Source: Spartobacteria bacterium | GTDB taxonomy: Bacteria; Verrucomicrobiota; Verrucomicrobiia; Chthoniobacterales; UBA10450 | Assembly: GCA_003134785.1 (NCBI GenBank) | Contig: PLCN01000021.1 | Coordinates: 131,784 to 195,783 of the forward strand | DNA length: 64,000 nt | Direction of reading: 5' to 3' | Part shown: in pieces, positions 4,661-45,640 of the stretch | Layout: each line of letters begins with the position of its first letter | How positions within the stretch are numbered: position 1 is the first letter of the stretch | The notes under the pieces: generated by a model | Database searches by the model: none | What the model saw: the letters and a program-made list of their open reading frames with translations, nothing else | What the model was told of the DNA's origin: nothing | Position numbers and translations under genes: made by a program

Positions 4661-6190
4661 ATGATGGATAAGACAAAAATCGATAATGAGAGACCTTCGG
4701 CGCTCGATCCTTCTTCGGAAGAGATCCGTGGATGGGGCAGCGCCGCCATCGAGGTGGTCGCAGCATATCTCGATTCGATCCGCGATCGGCGCGTTTACCC
4801 CGAGACCAGCTCGAAGCAGATTCGGGAAAAGTTGGACAGGGCTTTGCCGGGTGAAGGTATCGGCTTCGAACGGCTCCTTGAGACCTTTAGCGATGTCCTC
4901 GTGCCGATGAGCCGGCATAACGGTCATCCGCGCATGTTTGGTTATGTGCAGGCGCCCGGCACTGCTATCGCCGCCATCGCTGATCTGCTGGCCTCGGCGT
5001 TAAATGCGAACCTGACGGCGTGGCGCTCGGCGCCGGCGGCGGTCGAAGTCGAACGGCTGACTATTGATTGGATTAAGGAGATCATCGGAGTGGATGCGGG
5101 CGCAACCGGGTTGTTTGTCAGCGGCGGTTCGATGGCCAACCTGGCGGCGCTGGCGACCGCGCGGCGCGCAAAAGCACCGGCAGACCTAACGAGTAGAGGC
5201 GCGCAGTTTTTTCCGCGAGCCATGCGCGTTTATGTATCCGAAGAGACCCATCATTCGGTCGCCAAGGCCGCGGCGCTACTAGGCATCGGGCGCGACAATG
5301 TGCGCGTGGTCGGCGTGGATGAGTGCTTCAAGATCCGCATCGGCGAGCTTGTGGCGAAGATTGAAGAAGACCTCGAGGCGGGGCATCTTCCGTTTTTCGT
5401 GGTGGCGAGCGCCGGCACGGTGAACACCGGCGCGTTTGACCCTCTGGCTGAAGTCAGCGAAGTGGCGCGGCGATTCAACCTTTGGATGCACGTCGATGCC
5501 AGCTACGGCGGCTTCGCGGCGCTGGCGCCGTCGGCGAAAAGTCTGTTTGATGCGATGCGCGAAGCCGATTCGGTTGCGCTCGATCCGCACAAGTGGCTTT
5601 ACCTGCCGGTCGATTGCGGATGCGTCCTGTATCGCGATGCGGAAGCTGCTCGCGCTACCTTCGCGCATGACGCCGAGTATACGCGGGTGCTGGAGCAACA
5701 GCCCGACGAAGCTTTCGCCTTCTGGGATTACGGACCGGAGTTGTCCCGCCGTTTCCGCGCGTTGAAGGTCTGGATGATGTTGAAAGGTGTGGGCCTGCGC
5801 GTGCTCGGCGAAATGATCGAGAAAGACCTGGCTTGCGCCAGACATCTCGAACGCCTGGTGCGGGCGAGTGAAGACTTCGAGATGCTCGCGCCGGTCGAGC
5901 TATCGATCTTTTGTTTCCGTCACGTCCCTTCAGGGCTCAAGCTCGCGCTCGCCCGCGCGAATGAAGCGGAGCGTGCCAGGCTTAACCAGAAACTCGACAG
6001 GCTCAACGAGCGCTTGCTCATCGCCCTGCAGCAGGATGGCAGCTCTTACCTATCGAACGCGCTCCTCGGCGGGCGCTTCTGTTTGCGCGGATGCGTCATG
6101 AACTACCGCACCACTCTGCGTGACATGGAGATACTGCTCGACGATCTGCGCCGGCTAGCTCCTGTTGCTAGCCGGCGCGATGCTACTTAA
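4661..6190 (+). CDS. group II pyridoxal-dependent decarboxylase (aromatic amino-acid type)
   Basis: 509 aa, PLP-dependent decarboxylase related to aromatic-L-amino-acid/tyrosine/tryptophan/glutamate decarboxylases. Seen: cofactor Lys311 in LDPHKWLYLP, the pyridine-ring Asp279 in HVDASYGG, the stacking His region ETHHSV (about 195-200), the phosphate loop SGGSMAN (154-160) and FGYVQAPG near the N terminus. Length and order match the family. Product would be an aromatic amine; an amine oxidase gene lies 2 kb away on the other strand, so a decarboxylation-oxidation route is possible. Starts MMDKT. Its stop is only 26 nt from the stop of the convergent secreted-protein gene. Confidence 0.9.
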   Translation: MMDKTKIDNERPSALDPSSEEIRGWGSAAIEVVAAYLDSIRDRRVYPETSSKQIREKLDRALPGEGIGFERLLETFSDVLVPMSRHNGHPRMFGYVQAPGTAIAAIADLLASALNANLTAWRSAPAAVEVERLTIDWIKEIIGVDAGATGLFVSGGSMANLAALATARRAKAPADLTSRGAQFFPRAMRVYVSEETHHSVAKAAALLGIGRDNVRVVGVDECFKIRIGELVAKIEEDLEAGHLPFFVVASAGTVNTGAFDPLAEVSEVARRFNLWMHVDASYGGFAALAPSAKSLFDAMREADSVALDPHKWLYLPVDCGCVLYRDAEAARATFAHDAEYTRVLEQQPDEAFAFWDYGPELSRRFRALKVWMMLKGVGLRVLGEMIEKDLACARHLERLVRASEDFEMLAPVELSIFCFRHVPSGLKLALARANEAERARLNQKLDRLNERLLIALQQDGSSYLSNALLGGRFCLRGCVMNYRTTLRDMEILLDDLRRLAPVASRRDAT

Positions 6191-39249: not shown

Positions 39250-39657
39250 TTATGATTTCTTGGCGTCGTGCATTTCCTGCATCGACTTGCGCATGTCTTC
39301 GTGCGCCTTTTTCATCGCATCGAATTTTTGCTGTTGGTCCGGCGTGAGCAACGGCCGGATCTGCGCGCCGGTGCTTTCCATGAGCGCCTGCATCTTTTGC
39401 ATCGCTTCCTGATGGATGGCTGCGAGCTGCGGTTTGGTTTGATCGATGATCGGCTGCACCTTCGCCTTTTGGTCATCGGTCAGGTTCAGATCCTTGCTCA
39501 AATGGTCGAACGGATTCTCCATGTGATGCATCGGTCCCGGTCCGTGTTCATGCTTGGGTCCGGGGCCAGGTGCGCTGGGACCTTGAGCGTGAAGATAGGT
39601 CAGACCCCCAAGCGCGAGCGCGCCGGCGGCCATGAGAGTGATAAGTTTTCGTGTCAT
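39250..39657 (-). CDS. periplasmic LTxxQ-motif protein (Spy/CpxP-like)
   Basis: 135 aa with signal peptide (about residues 1-24). His/Pro/Gly-rich N-terminal linker (GPKHEHGPGPMHH) then two LTxxQ motifs, LNLTDDQKAKVQPII and LLTPDQQQKFDAM, and a Lys/Met/Glu-rich helix end. Spy/CpxP-type proteins are helical periplasmic chaperones or stress sensors. Divergent (188 bp) from an ECF sigma operon that encodes a second LTxxQ protein, so they likely belong together. Confidence 0.8.
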   Translation of the reverse strand: MTRKLITLMAAGALALGGLTYLHAQGPSAPGPGPKHEHGPGPMHHMENPFDHLSKDLNLTDDQKAKVQPIIDQTKPQLAAIHQEAMQKMQALMESTGAQIRPLLTPDQQQKFDAMKKAHEDMRKSMQEMHDAKKS

Positions 39658-39845
39658 TGTAGTTTGTTTCTTGTGTTTCAGCGCAATCAGAGCGCCTCTT
39701 TCAGGAATGGATGACCGGAAGGCAAACCTCGCGGTTACAAATTTGTTGCGAAATTTTTCCCGCGCAGGAAGAAGCCGCGATTATTTTGTAACCTGCGGAG
39801 CCGCGCTCCTGTCTTCTTCAGCAGTGTGGACTGGCTTCGCTTTAC

Positions 39846-40430
39846 ATGGCTGATGATGGAGTCTCACGGGAGTTGGTGGCTGCGGCGCTGCGGCATGATG
39901 ATGATGCGGCGCGCGAATTGGTTCGCCTCCTCTACCCGTTGGTGGCGAAACTGGTGCGCGCCCATCGGCCGGCGAGAAGCGCCGAAGAGGACCTTTGCCA
40001 GATGATATTTATCAAGGTAATGCAGAAGCTATCTCAGTTTTCCGGAAAGGCGCCGATCGAGCACTGGGTCTCGCGCATCGCCATCAATACCTGCATCAAC
40101 CAGATCCAGGCGGAGAAAGCGCGGCCGGAATTGCGCGAAGCCGATCTGAGCGAAGAACAGGTCGCCGTGATCCAGAACCTGGCCGCGACGAGCGATGAGC
40201 TGGCGCCCGACCAGAGTTTTGTTTCGCGCCAGTTAGTCGAGCATCTGATGAAAGCGCTCAAACCAGCCGAGCGGCTCGTGATAGATCTGCTTTATTTGCA
40301 GCAGCGCTCCGTGGCGGAAATCCAGAAGATCACCGGCTGGAGCACCGCGCTGGTGAAGGTGCGCGCATTCCGCGCCCGGCAAAAAATGAAGAAGCAAATG
40401 GCAAACATCTCGGCGAAGGAGAACGCATGA
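39846..40430 (+). CDS. ECF-type RNA polymerase sigma factor
   Basis: 194 aa. Region 2: LVRLLYPLVAKLVRAHRPAR, EEDLCQMIFIKVMQKLSQF and HWVSRIAINTCINQI; region 4: LKPAERLVIDLLYLQQRSVA EIQKITGWSTALVKVRAFRA R, a helix-turn-helix for -35 recognition. Its last codons overlap the next gene (atga at 40427), which encodes a one-span protein, the usual place for an anti-sigma factor. Confidence 0.88.
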   Translation: MADDGVSRELVAAALRHDDDAARELVRLLYPLVAKLVRAHRPARSAEEDLCQMIFIKVMQKLSQFSGKAPIEHWVSRIAINTCINQIQAEKARPELREADLSEEQVAVIQNLAATSDELAPDQSFVSRQLVEHLMKALKPAERLVIDLLYLQQRSVAEIQKITGWSTALVKVRAFRARQKMKKQMANISAKENA

Positions 40431-40741
40431 AAGGCCGCAACGCGGATTTGGATCGCCTCTTGCGTTCGGCGTCGCACTCATCCGAGGAATCGGCGCCGGA
40501 AGCGCCTTTCGGTTTCGAGACTCGCGTGGTTTCGTTATGGCGCGCGGGAAATGGAAGAGCGAGCGAGGCCGCGGATCTGACCCGCTTTCTCCAGCGAATC
40601 GGTGTGGGCGCCCTCGTCGTGCTGGCTCTCGCGAGCGCCGGCGCCTATCAGCAATTCAACGACAACGAGGAGCGAATCGCACCGCAAAGCAACGAATACG
40701 CGATCGCCGATTCGGCCATCCAGACGGAATTTTCACAATGA
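40427..40741 (+). CDS. one-span membrane protein, likely anti-sigma partner
   Basis: 104 aa. Cytoplasmic N-terminal about 60 residues (LDRLLRSASHSSEESAPEAP FGFETRVVSLWRAG), one membrane helix (GVGALVVLALASAGAYQ, about 68-84) and a short periplasmic tail. No zinc-binding HxxxCxxC motif is present, so it is not a classic ZAS anti-sigma factor; the role is inferred from the ATGA overlaps with the sigma gene on one side and the LTxxQ gene on the other. Confidence 0.7.
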   Translation: MKGRNADLDRLLRSASHSSEESAPEAPFGFETRVVSLWRAGNGRASEAADLTRFLQRIGVGALVVLALASAGAYQQFNDNEERIAPQSNEYAIADSAIQTEFSQ

Positions 40742-41166
40742 ACAGCGCGTTGAAATGGAAACTGGCGTTCGCCCTCCTTCTCGTCTTCGCGGCGGGGATC
40801 ACGACCGGCGGATTGTTCAGCGCACTGCATGTGCGGCGTCACTTCCTCGGGCCGCCAGAGTCCGGCGAGGTGAGCAATCGGATGCGAGAACATTTGCGGC
40901 GTGTCTTGGATCTGACGCCTGAACAAACGGCGAAAATTTCGCCGATCGTCGATGCCACTTCCGCGAAGCTCGAAGCGATCCGGGTGGAGACCGCTCAGCG
41001 AGTTCGCGCGGTGATGGAGGAGTCTGAGAAACAAATTTCGCCAGAGCTCTCGCTTGAGCAGCAAAAGAAAATGCAGGCGCTGAAACTGGAGCACCACAAG
41101 ATCATGCAGCATCACGGTTTTCTGCCTCCCCCTCCGCCGGACCAGCCAGCGCCACCGCCGCCCTAA
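40738..41166 (+). CDS. membrane-anchored LTxxQ protein (heavy-metal/stress sensor-like)
   Basis: 142 aa from ATG 40738, which overlaps the previous stop. One N-terminal anchor (LAFALLLVFAAGITTGGLF), then periplasmic helices with LDLTPEQTAKISPIVDATSA KLEAIR and LSLEQQKKMQALKLEHHKIM QHHGF and a Pro-rich end. The layout matches CnrX/ZraP/Spy-type sensors that hold an anti-sigma factor. The His/Met-rich C terminus could bind metal; not tested. Confidence 0.78.
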   Translation: MNSALKWKLAFALLLVFAAGITTGGLFSALHVRRHFLGPPESGEVSNRMREHLRRVLDLTPEQTAKISPIVDATSAKLEAIRVETAQRVRAVMEESEKQISPELSLEQQKKMQALKLEHHKIMQHHGFLPPPPPDQPAPPPP

Positions 41167-41422
41167 CTTTTGCTCCTCAACACTCTTGCTCCTGATCTTG
41201 ATCGTGCTCCTGATTCTTTCTTCAGGTCGATCGACAACCATTGCGAGCAAGAGCAGGAGCAGGATTAAGAGAGGAGGAGCCCGAAACCGGCGGTCCCCGA
41301 CCGCCGAAGAACCCACGGTGGTTTGTAAACCGACGCCGCTCCTTGTTTAGAGAACAGGAAGCGCTCTGGCAGGCGACCTGCTTAATAGCACGCCTGTGGA
41401 ATCAACTTCGACATGGGAAACC

Positions 41423-42190
41423 ATGGGCTTAGGCCGATTGCGGCTTCTCCTTTTTTGCCTAACGACCATCGCCCTTTCGCCGGTCGCCTCCGGCAATTTG
41501 ATCGTCAACGGCGACTTCGAGCTCGTTGGACCTGCGCCGGGCAGCCCGGCCTCCACCTTCACCACCGACTATGCCCCGATCGGCGCTAACACCCTTACCG
41601 GCTGGACGAGCGCGATCAGCGCGGAGCCAGGCGCCGCCAATTATCTTTCGACGGCAAATTCGACCGCGGACTGGATCCCGAATCCGTTCACCGGCGGCTA
41701 CTCGATGCAGCTGGACAGCTCGACCACAACCAACGCCTACGCCGGCGGCAACTCTCTTTCCCAAACGCTTTCATTGACGAGCGGCGTGCAATATCATCTC
41801 ACCTTTTACATGAGCGCCGAAGCCGCCCGCGGAGTAACGACCACCTCGACGCTGAATGTGATCCTGAACGGCGGCGGCTTTAGTAATTTCACGACCTCGT
41901 TCAGCGCCAGCAATCCTGGCACCGACACCAAAGCAACGACGGGCGACTGGGTGCTGCAAACACTCGATTTCACGGTCACTGTCACCGGCAATCTGACGCT
42001 GACCTTCCAAGACATCTACACGCCTAACGGCACCAGCTCGAACGCGTCGCTGGATAATATCGATCTCACGGCCGTCCCGGAAATTCCAAATGGCGTTGCG
42101 GTCGGAGCTTTCTGTCTTGCGCTGGTGCTGACGCGGAAACTCGGGCGATCCCGACTTATCTCGGCTCGCCTGCGCGCGCGATCGCGTTAA
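41423..42190 (+). CDS. exported surface protein with CTERM-like sorting tail
   Basis: 255 aa from ATG 41423. Signal peptide (LLLFCLTTIALSPVASG) leads to NLIVNGDFELVGPAPGSP and a jelly-roll-like domain rich in Ser/Thr/Asn (WTSAISAEPGAANYLSTANS, LTFYMSAEAARGVTTTSTLN), as in DUF642-type proteins. Ends AVPEIPNGVAVGAFCLALVL TRKLGRSR: short Pro motif, membrane helix, basic cluster, the three parts of a PEP-CTERM/VPDSG-type anchor though the motif itself is degenerate. Probably exported and processed by an exosortase; none is in the window. Confidence 0.72.
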   Translation: MGLGRLRLLLFCLTTIALSPVASGNLIVNGDFELVGPAPGSPASTFTTDYAPIGANTLTGWTSAISAEPGAANYLSTANSTADWIPNPFTGGYSMQLDSSTTTNAYAGGNSLSQTLSLTSGVQYHLTFYMSAEAARGVTTTSTLNVILNGGGFSNFTTSFSASNPGTDTKATTGDWVLQTLDFTVTVTGNLTLTFQDIYTPNGTSSNASLDNIDLTAVPEIPNGVAVGAFCLALVLTRKLGRSRLISARLRARSR

Positions 42191-43146: not shown

Positions 43147-43887
43147 TTGAAAAACTTTCTCCGGCTTAACGCTAGCCTGTTTTACTGGGTCCTGGTCGCG
43201 CCGTTCAAGGGGCAGATGTTCAAGTTTTCGCCGATCTTCCGGCAGATGGTTTTCATCGGCGTCCGCGCCACGCCGATGGTGGCGCTCACCGCGTTCAGCG
43301 TCGGCGTCACGCTCGCGATGCAGGCCGCGCATTCGCTCCAGCAACTCGGCGCGGAAATTTACGTGCCCGACCTGGTCATGGTCACATTGCTGCGGGAGAT
43401 GGGTCCGGTCTTGATCGCGGTGATCGTGATCGGGCGCAGCGGCTCTGCCGTGGCCGCGGAGTTGGGCACCATGAAAGTGTCTGAGGAAATCGAAGCGCTC
43501 GAAGTGATGGCGATCAATCCCATCAGCTACCTCATCGTCCCCCGCTTCCTCGCCATGCTCGTGATGCTGCCGGCTCTCACGATCCTGGGAAATTACATTG
43601 GTGTTTTCGGTGGCTGGGCCGTCTGCCGTTTCGCGCTCAATTTCAATACCGCCGGCTATGTGCTCCGCGCGCTCGAGAGTGCTGAGACCTGGGACTTGTA
43701 TTCGGGCATGATCAAAAGCGCGGTCTTCGCCTGGATCATCATCACCATCGCCTGCAATGCCGGTCTCCACGTAGAAGGCGGCGCGGAAGGTGTCGGCCAG
43801 GCCACGACATCATCCGTCGTGCAAGCGCTCCTTGCCATGCTCGTGACTAACGCCATCCTCACCGCGGTCTTTTTCTTCGGCGCATGA
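43147..43887 (+). CDS. mlaE: MlaE family phospholipid ABC transporter permease
   Basis: 246 aa. ABC permease of the Mla/Ttg2/MCE system moving phospholipids between outer and inner membrane. Seen: FIGVRATPMVALTAFSVGVT LAMQ, LVMVTLLREMGPVLIAVIVI GRSGSAVAAELGTMKVSEEI EALEVM (the MlaE core) and LIVPRFLAMLVMLPALT. The start is a TTG at 43147 without a visible Shine-Dalgarno. Overlaps mlaF by 4 nt (atga). Confidence 0.9.
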   Translation: MKNFLRLNASLFYWVLVAPFKGQMFKFSPIFRQMVFIGVRATPMVALTAFSVGVTLAMQAAHSLQQLGAEIYVPDLVMVTLLREMGPVLIAVIVIGRSGSAVAAELGTMKVSEEIEALEVMAINPISYLIVPRFLAMLVMLPALTILGNYIGVFGGWAVCRFALNFNTAGYVLRALESAETWDLYSGMIKSAVFAWIIITIACNAGLHVEGGAEGVGQATTSSVVQALLAMLVTNAILTAVFFFGA

Positions 43888-44738
43888 TTCCTGAAACCGA
43901 GCCTGTCGTGGAAGTCGTGGATCTGTTCCGAAAATTCGGAAATCGTAGCGTAATCGACGGCATCTCGCTCAAGGTCCAGCGCGGCGAGACGCTCGTGATC
44001 ATGGGTGGGAGCGGTTGCGGCAAGAGCACCTTGCTGCGCCATATCATCGGCGTGATGAAGCCGACTGCCGGTTCGGTCAAAATTTTCGGCAACGAAATTA
44101 CCACCATGAACGATCGCGAAATCGACGAGATCCGGCGGCGCTTCGGGATGTTGTTTCAATCAGGCGCGCTCCTCGCGTCGCTCACCGTTGGCGAGAATGT
44201 GGCGTTGCCGCTTTTGCAGCACACCGACCTCTCCGCCGAGGAAATCCAGGAGATCGTGGCTCAGAAACTTCAGACAGTCGGCTTAAACGGATTCGAAAAT
44301 CTCAAGCCGGCGGAAATCAGCGGCGGGATGAGAAAACGCGTCGGTCTGGCGCGAGCGTTGGCGCTCGATCCCGAGTTGCTCTTCAGCGACGAGCCGACTT
44401 CGGGACTCGATCCCATCATGACCGCGGTCGTGGATAGGCTCACTCTCGAGCTCACTCAAGGAGCGGGCATGACGGCCGTGGTCGTGACCCACGATATGAC
44501 CAGCGCATTTCGCATCGCCACGCGAATGATTATGCTCGGACGCGGCAAGATTATCGCGCAAGGTACTCCGGACGAAATTCGCACGAGCCCGGATCCAGAA
44601 GTGCAACAATTCATCAATGGCGAAGCCGACGGACCCATGCCTTTGAATCTTTCGCAGGACGATCACGAGCACCATCCCCATGTCAAAGCGCGTCCGCTGG
44701 TTTCCGCCCGCCGCCGCTTTCACCACAAGATTCCATGA
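43884..44738 (+). CDS. mlaF: MlaF family ABC transporter ATP-binding protein
   Basis: 284 aa ATPase. Walker A GGSGCGKST (41-49), signature ISGGMRKRVGLARA, Walker B LLFSDEPTSGLDP, and switch His in VVVTHDM. Ends in an Arg/His-rich tail (HHPHVKARPLVSARRRFHHK). Overlaps genes on both sides by 4 nt. Powers the MlaE permease. Confidence 0.93.
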   Translation: MIPETEPVVEVVDLFRKFGNRSVIDGISLKVQRGETLVIMGGSGCGKSTLLRHIIGVMKPTAGSVKIFGNEITTMNDREIDEIRRRFGMLFQSGALLASLTVGENVALPLLQHTDLSAEEIQEIVAQKLQTVGLNGFENLKPAEISGGMRKRVGLARALALDPELLFSDEPTSGLDPIMTAVVDRLTLELTQGAGMTAVVVTHDMTSAFRIATRMIMLGRGKIIAQGTPDEIRTSPDPEVQQFINGEADGPMPLNLSQDDHEHHPHVKARPLVSARRRFHHKIP

Positions 44739-45640
44739 AACGAAATTTCTCCGATTACATCGTTGCCCTCTCCGTCATCGTCTGCAGCGCGATCCTGCTC
44801 GCGGCCTTGACCATGGCGCTTTCCGGTTACCGCTTGAAGAAGCCCTCGCGGACTTTGCAGATCGACTACGAAGACGTCACGGGGATCAAGCTGCATTCGG
44901 AAGTTCGTTATGCGGGCGCGCCGGCGGGGCGGGTAATTGCGATGCGCCACTTGAGCGGAGGGCAACGCCAATCCTCGGCGAACCAGAGGAACGCCGTGCG
45001 CGTCACCATCAACCTCGATGACAATATTCCGCCCCTGCCCGCCGATGTTACTGCGACGCTTAGCTCGGATACGTTGCTAGCGCCAAAGTTTGTCGCGCTT
45101 TCCGCAGGCACGCCTGGAGGGGAGACACTGGCCAATAACGCCATCATCGAAGGCCACCCCGCCTACGGACTCGAGCAGATCACTGCGGCTGCCGGTCCGC
45201 TCTTCGAGAACGCGAACAAGCTGATCGATAATCTGAATGGGACAGTCACGAATCTGGATGGCACCGTGACCACCGTGAGAAAGGAACTGACAGATTTCCT
45301 CCCGAAGTTTTCGCCACTGCTCGATACCGTAAAAATGGATCTGGAGGAATTGCAGCGCATTATCAAAGGCCTCGATGGCATCGAGCAAAATGCGAACAAC
45401 GTTTTTCAAACAGCGGGCAAATTTATCGGCACGACGGACAAGCAACTGCAAGATCAGATGAAGGAGTTGCACGTGATCTTGCTGAACTTGAAGGTGGTCA
45501 GCACGCACGCGAAAGCGATCACGGAGGCGTTGGGTGAAAAGCCGAACCGCATCATCTTCAGCGGCAAGACCAAGAAGCTCACGCCCGAGGCGGAGATCCT
45601 CAAGAGCAAGGAACCATTACCCGCGCAGCAGAAGCCCTAG
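44735..45640 (+). CDS. mlaD: MlaD/MCE-domain protein
   Basis: 301 aa. One N-terminal membrane anchor (about 9-30) and an MCE beta-barrel: GIKLHSEVRYAGAPAGRVIA M, VRVTINLDDNIPPLPADVTA TLSSDTLLAPKFVALSAGT. C-terminal half is a long helix (LIDNLNGTVTNLDGTVTTVR KELTDFL), as in MlaD-like proteins that form a periplasmic ring or tube. Completes the mlaEFD operon; no MlaB or MlaC is nearby. Confidence 0.9.
   Translation: MKRNFSDYIVALSVIVCSAILLAALTMALSGYRLKKPSRTLQIDYEDVTGIKLHSEVRYAGAPAGRVIAMRHLSGGQRQSSANQRNAVRVTINLDDNIPPLPADVTATLSSDTLLAPKFVALSAGTPGGETLANNAIIEGHPAYGLEQITAAAGPLFENANKLIDNLNGTVTNLDGTVTTVRKELTDFLPKFSPLLDTVKMDLEELQRIIKGLDGIEQNANNVFQTAGKFIGTTDKQLQDQMKELHVILLNLKVVSTHAKAITEALGEKPNRIIFSGKTKKLTPEAEILKSKEPLPAQQKP

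Follow-up and report, generated by a model that had tools for sequence, protein, structure and literature searches.

How a member of the Verrucomicrobia might pass a signal from its envelope to an ECF sigma factor is the question raised by a locus in which the gene for such a factor is joined to two genes for membrane proteins and stands back to back with a gene for a secreted Spy-like protein. The locus lies in a window of 64,000 nucleotides, that is, the whole stretch of DNA analysed here, which corresponds to positions 131784-195783 of contig C4 of the 4.4 Mb genome of a soil bacterium related to the Chthoniobacterales (the home genome hereafter). The genes and their promoters are called here the module, and the module is likely to be a transmembrane sigma/anti-sigma switch for envelope stress, with a metal or a signal of misfolding or envelope damage as its possible ligand. 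This article discusses the organization and the conservation of the module, the proteins which it encodes, the promoters from which it is presumably read and its relationship to known systems.

Gene organization

The module comprises genes for an ECF sigma factor (39846..40430, + strand), a one-span protein of 104 aa (40427..40741, +) and a membrane-anchored LTxxQ/Metal_resist protein (40738..41166, +), which are joined by ATGA overlaps at 40427-40430 and 40738-40741, and a divergent gene for a secreted Spy-like LTxxQ protein (39250..39657, -). All four open reading frames and both overlaps had been pointed out in a preliminary description of this DNA and were found again. The one-span protein is proposed to be a class II (CnrY-like) anti-sigma factor, and the membrane-anchored LTxxQ protein, called the sensor hereafter, is proposed to hold it from the periplasmic side. 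The sigma factor itself is assigned by TIGR02937 (78.3 bits, cut-off 42.9) and by the Pfam families Sigma70_r2 (40.5 bits) and Sigma70_r4_2 (36.4 bits); its relatives in the PDB are sigma-E (1or7) and SigW (5wuq) and, more weakly, CnrH (4cxf), with which it shares 26% identity (138 aa, E 8e-9).

The next gene downstream, after a gap of about 230 bp, encodes a secreted DUF642-like protein (41396-42190, +; 25.4 bits against a cut-off of 27) with a PEP-CTERM-like end. Further downstream (43147-45640, +), three overlapping genes resemble, by eye, an MlaE/MlaF/MlaD-type lipid-transport ABC system.

Conservation of the module

Of the family's 83 genomes, 60 encode the one-span protein; among the 30 good ones the number is 26. 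The order sigma factor, one-span protein and LTxxQ protein is seen in about 60 modules of the family, and the overlap is exactly 4 nt at 58 of 61 junctions between the first two genes and at 58 of the 63 measured junctions between the second and the third; because of this common order and these overlaps, the layout cannot be ascribed to chance. The divergent gene for the secreted LTxxQ protein accompanies the modules of the main lineage that have enough upstream sequence, and the modules which at first seemed to be without it turned out to lie at contig or locus ends, to be paralogous modules or to have the gene after all. The four-gene order is thus kept among relatives, a point on which the preliminary description had made its reading depend. 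The genes, their overlaps and their conservation are read directly from the sequence, as are the promoter pairs and the paralogy described below.

Beyond the family, the profile of the one-span protein matches in 33 of 288 genomes of the phylum. Among 27 loci outside the family, the whole trio is found in 26, and the remaining one ends at a contig edge; in all 26 complete loci the one-span gene stays paired with the sigma gene, either overlapping it or directly after it. Two of these relatives, one from the same order (L200) and one from another class of the phylum (L187), also have the divergent secreted LTxxQ gene and the divergent pair of promoter motifs. In addition, a related trio occurs in an isolate, Chthoniobacter flavus Ellin428 (L177). 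Where a carrier of the module's own one-span protein has a name, it is nearly always a Verrucomicrobia MAG (Chthoniobacterales, Spartobacteria and Candidatus Udaeobacter). The home genome contains two further trios, on contigs C25 and C24, whose sigma factors are 54% and 46% identical, respectively, to that of the module. The C25 paralog and its orthologs form the same clade in the trees of the sigma factor, the one-span protein and the LTxxQ protein, and therefore the three genes have been inherited together.

Several variant loci were noted on the way. In L068 and L069, from two genomes, the C-terminal part of a one-span protein, without its first helix, is joined to a glycosyltransferase-like frame, and an LTxxQ gene follows the fusion through ATGA, with no sigma gene found at these loci; L067, from a third genome, is a shorter version. 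In L173, with a similar start in L174 and L175, genes of periplasmic adaptor, ABC ATPase and MacB-like permease type (judged by eye) lie 3' of the trio, an efflux-like layout which is closer to cnrYXH-CBA. Near the C25 paralogous trio (L074, 7969-10991, -) there are genes resembling an RND adaptor and permease, and near position 4950 of the same locus a divergent TGTAACC-N16-GTC site, behind which genes for a small secreted and a beta-barrel-like protein are located.

The membrane-anchored LTxxQ protein and the secreted Spy-like protein

The secreted protein has a signal peptide, a His/Met-rich mature N-terminus and the motifs LTDDQ and LTPDQ. It matches the Pfam families LTXXQ (PF07813, 29.3 bits, cut-off 24.3) and Metal_resist (30.8 bits, cut-off 29.2), and its match to the Spy equivalog PRK10455 (E 3.3e-12, 47 bits) is below the cut-off of 174. 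The sensor taken alone stays under the same two cut-offs, with 17.5 bits for LTXXQ and 15.5 bits for Metal_resist (PF13801); among its homologs, however, 50 of 51 match LTXXQ and 41 of 51 match PF13801 at E up to 0.1. The AF2 model of the sensor, which is of middling confidence (pLDDT 81, pTM 0.51), shows a membrane helix that leads into a helical hairpin. Foldseek and VIA-align searches with this model gave no informative match, a result which speaks neither for nor against kinship, and the sensor-family profile gave weak matches to Spy in the PDB, mixed with unrelated proteins. Comparison of the sensor with the secreted protein by hhalign (E 5.9e-22, 80 columns) shows that the two are paralogs.

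As to the nature of the ligand, a narrower version of the envelope-stress reading is that the module is a metal switch of the CnrYXH type, which would sense Ni, Co, Zn or Cu, the Spy-like protein being a His-rich, ZraP-like periplasmic buffer. CnrX matches PF13801 with 91.2 bits, as most sensor homologs do at E up to 0.1. A histidine in the C-terminal helix of the sensor, H119, is found in 42 of 51 homologs, and the secreted protein has conserved histidines at H82 (32 of 36), H119 (29 of 36) and H130 (30 of 36), besides a His-rich mature N-terminus within the genus of the window; the exporter-like genes after the related module L173 also point to metals. On the other hand, the sensor family has no invariant His, Cys or Met except the initiator Met, its hairpin cannot be aligned to CnrX (no hhalign match between the sensor family and CnrX), and no metal-efflux gene adjoins this module. 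The metal switch is a serious possibility, given slightly less than an even chance. Because of the histidine patterns of the sensor and the secreted protein, metal and envelope damage are both possible signals within the broader envelope-stress switch.

The one-span protein as a candidate anti-sigma factor

The one-span protein is without a relative in Pfam, NCBIfam or the PDB, even when searched with a profile of its family. Its AF2 model, again of middling confidence (pLDDT 73, pTM 0.31), consists of a helix (residues 2-16), a loop, a long helix (30-84) which runs into the membrane span (about 57-76) and a periplasmic helix (88-102). On the cytosolic side the family conserves LDRLLRSAA and MPFGFDTRVVALWR, and in the periplasm NEYAIADSAIQ. 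The protein has no cysteine, hence the HxxxCxxC motif of zinc anti-sigma factors (ZAS/ZASD) is absent, as the preliminary description had stated.

The best studied protein for comparison is CnrY, which has a single membrane span. It is a zinc-free class II anti-sigma factor whose two helices clasp CnrH, sigma4 being contacted by the first and sigma2 by the second (PMC4598750, PMC7406223). The corresponding class II feature, a short zinc-free cytosolic two-helix domain, is present in the one-span protein, as judged from the model of middling confidence and the lack of Cys. The preliminary description had set the anti-sigma type apart from that of cnrYXH, and this part is not supported: CnrY follows the same zinc-free two-helix class II plan (PMC4598750, PMC7406223) as is predicted here. 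At the level of sequence, none of 48 one-span members matches the CnrY family PF17524, and hhalign of the one-span family against CnrY gave no match (probability 0.5%). By analogy, the one-span protein probably works like CnrY, as a class II, two-helix, zinc-free anti-sigma factor.

The absence of any family assignment would also suit a merely accessory one-span protein, the sigma factor being controlled by the membrane LTxxQ protein or by an unlinked factor. Such an arrangement is improbable, since the one-span protein is the sole protein of the module besides the sigma factor with a substantial cytosolic domain, its gene is paired with the sigma gene throughout the complete phylum loci described above, and the best conserved motif of its family, MPFGFDTRVVALWR, sits in the cytosolic segment.

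Promoters and leader of the sigma operon

Between the divergent genes the motif TGTAACC-N17-GTC occurs twice, one copy in each direction: a candidate sigma-type promoter of the sigma operon, which would provide autoregulation (39787..39813, +), and one of the Spy-like gene (39713..39739, -). The motif resembles those read by ECF factors of Bacillus, SigX among them. Among 53 intergenic regions, the motif is directed towards the sigma gene in 49, towards the Spy-like gene in 51 and in both directions in 47, while first-order shuffles gave expected counts of 0.05, 0.06 and 0.000, respectively. Because the spacers are merely 36-41% alike, these pairs do not simply reflect recent ancestry. The distance from GTC to the start of the sigma gene is mostly 32 nt, with 23 nt in 11 modules, where the annotated start may be too early; on the side of the Spy-like gene it is mostly 39-67 nt. 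The search for sigma-specific promoters before both genes (starts at 39846 and 39657), which the preliminary description had proposed, thus turned up conserved sigma-type motifs on both sides, and its suggestion that the extra Spy-like protein may be the output gains ground from the motif before that gene. The promoters of the C25 and C24 paralogous sigma factors are similar (TGTAACC-N16/17-GTC), and because of this the pairing of each sigma factor with each promoter remains putative.

Another conserved element follows the promoter of the sigma operon. In most modules GTGTGG is located 10 nt past the GTC, and GTG is the first codon of a short frame in 48 of 56. In the window the element and its frame, VWTGFALHG followed by a stop codon, extend over 39824..39853 (+). 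The frame has 6-12 codons and usually ends 8 nt inside the sigma gene (ATGGATGA/ATGGCTGA); counted from GTGTGG, the sigma start lies at a distance of 1 mod 3 in nearly all cases, and several other families have ATGTGG or TGTGT at this position. The element is possibly a mini-uORF coupled to the translation of the sigma gene, or else an element of the initial transcript, the evidence from frame length being no more than suggestive.

Predicted regulon beyond the module

A loose form of the motif gave 18 sites across the home genome and 14 in the reversed control, which is near chance and defines no regulon, so the loose search was dropped; regulon calls rest on a stricter motif together with conservation among orthologs. 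With the strict motif, the home genome gives 4 sites and the reversed control none. In eight genomes of the genus this motif has 31 sites against 7 in the reversed control, 16 of the 31 being at modules, and the module itself carries it in 8 of 8.

Away from the module, the motif also stands 64-78 bp ahead of the gene for a secreted protein of 158 aa that belongs to no Pfam family (G000:C22). This holds for 4 of 4 close orthologs, which lie in four of the eight genus genomes, but not for more distant relatives of the gene; going by this recurrence, the gene is probably also driven by the sigma factor of the module. Because the promoter pair is kept in 47 of 53 modules and this unlinked gene has the motif as well, the Spy-like gene is very probably a target of the sigma factor. 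A secreted Metal_resist gene (G000:C17) has a variant of the motif (CGTC) in three genomes; it may belong to the C24 paralogous sigma factor, the -10 being more like that of this factor's promoters. The copy in the home genome (G000:C17:133162-133629, L222) has an in-frame TAG, and in another genome (G022:C17, L224-L226) the gene is broken across three frames and the motif has decayed, while two relatives keep intact copies. A response regulator gene (G000:C8) and most single motif sites in the genus were discarded, as they are not recurrent.

That the genes are mere neighbours without a single circuit, a different ECF sigma factor acting on the promoter pair, might be argued from the two close sigma paralogs with their similar promoters and from the near-chance behaviour of the loose motif. 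This reading is improbable in view of the divergent pairs at the module itself, of the joint inheritance of its three genes and of the presence there of the strict motif in every genus genome.

Proposed circuit

Considering these results together, the envelope-stress switch may be pictured as follows, the anti-sigma activity, the sensor role and the feedback being modelled on known systems. In the resting cell the one-span protein would tether the sigma factor to the cytosolic face of the membrane through two short helices, as CnrY does with CnrH, and its conserved periplasmic tail would dock on the membrane-anchored LTxxQ protein. Binding of a ligand, either a metal ion or a signal of misfolding or envelope damage, to the periplasmic LTxxQ hairpin would change the complex and set the sigma factor free, and the RNA polymerase would then read the TGTAACC-N17-GTC promoters. 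Consequently, the sigma operon would activate itself (positive autoregulation), and the divergent secreted Spy-like protein and probably the unlinked secreted protein would be produced. Since the periplasmic domain of the sensor and the Spy-like protein are paralogs, the latter probably binds ligands of the same class, and it would thereby relieve the stress and quench the signal, which suggests a negative feedback through competition for the ligand between the secreted output and the sensor. A fuller version, in which this competition makes the circuit self-limiting and the leader frame couples translation of the sigma gene to a further input, is rather doubtful; if true, such an envelope-stress circuit would be new to Verrucomicrobia.

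The module occurs in many Verrucomicrobia from soil and peat, a Candidatus Udaeobacter among them, and related trios are present elsewhere in the phylum. Moreover, since the promoter is exact, the predicted regulon small and the output named, signal, specificity and feedback can be tested directly, for which Chthoniobacter flavus Ellin428, an isolate with a related three-gene set, is useful.

Comparison with known systems

CnrYXH is, to our knowledge, the sole ECF switch with a PF13801/LTxxQ sensor that has been studied well. In CnrYXH (and NccYXH) of Cupriavidus metallidurans (reference locus L184, from pMOL28), three adjoining small genes likewise encode an ECF sigma factor, a zinc-free anti-sigma factor and a PF13801/LTxxQ periplasmic protein, the last two of which have putative counterparts in the module, and CnrY, with 94 aa, is comparable in size to the one-span protein, with 104 aa. 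However, the gene order is Y-X-H in CnrYXH and H-Y-X in the Verrucomicrobia module, efflux genes of the cnrCBA type are linked to the former but not to the latter, and the putative output of the module differs as well, being a secreted LTxxQ paralog encoded divergently behind a sigma-type promoter. Furthermore, there is no sequence match between the one-span protein and CnrY (PF17524), nor an hhalign match between the sensor and CnrX. The resemblance to cnrYXH noted in the preliminary description therefore stands for the plan, namely a sigma factor, a zinc-free anti-sigma plan and an LTxxQ protein, and fails for gene order, linked genes and sequences; for the same reasons and because of the different output, the module is not filed as a member of CnrYXH.

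The RpoE8 operon of Azospirillum brasilense consists of a sigma factor, a hypothetical protein and a 'periplasmic heavy metal sensor' (AMK58_24940 to 24950) in the same three-gene order, as annotated (PMC12826043). Because of this operon, the core three-gene layout is not unique; the available part of that account gives no function and describes neither a divergent Spy-like gene nor a promoter pair (PMC12826043). The module was not described in the literature searched, and the large ECF re-classification lay outside that search, so an ECF group number may exist.

Spy and CpxP, which belong to the Cpx/Bae regulons, are likewise secreted LTxxQ proteins under an envelope signalling system. They are controlled by a two-component system, whereas the Spy-like protein here is putatively controlled by an ECF sigma factor, and here, unlike in Spy/CpxP, the sensor is a paralog of the output. 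With respect to the literature searched, what appears to be new is the combination of a Spy-like paralog with sigma-type promoters that mirror each other, together with its wide retention in this family of Verrucomicrobia.
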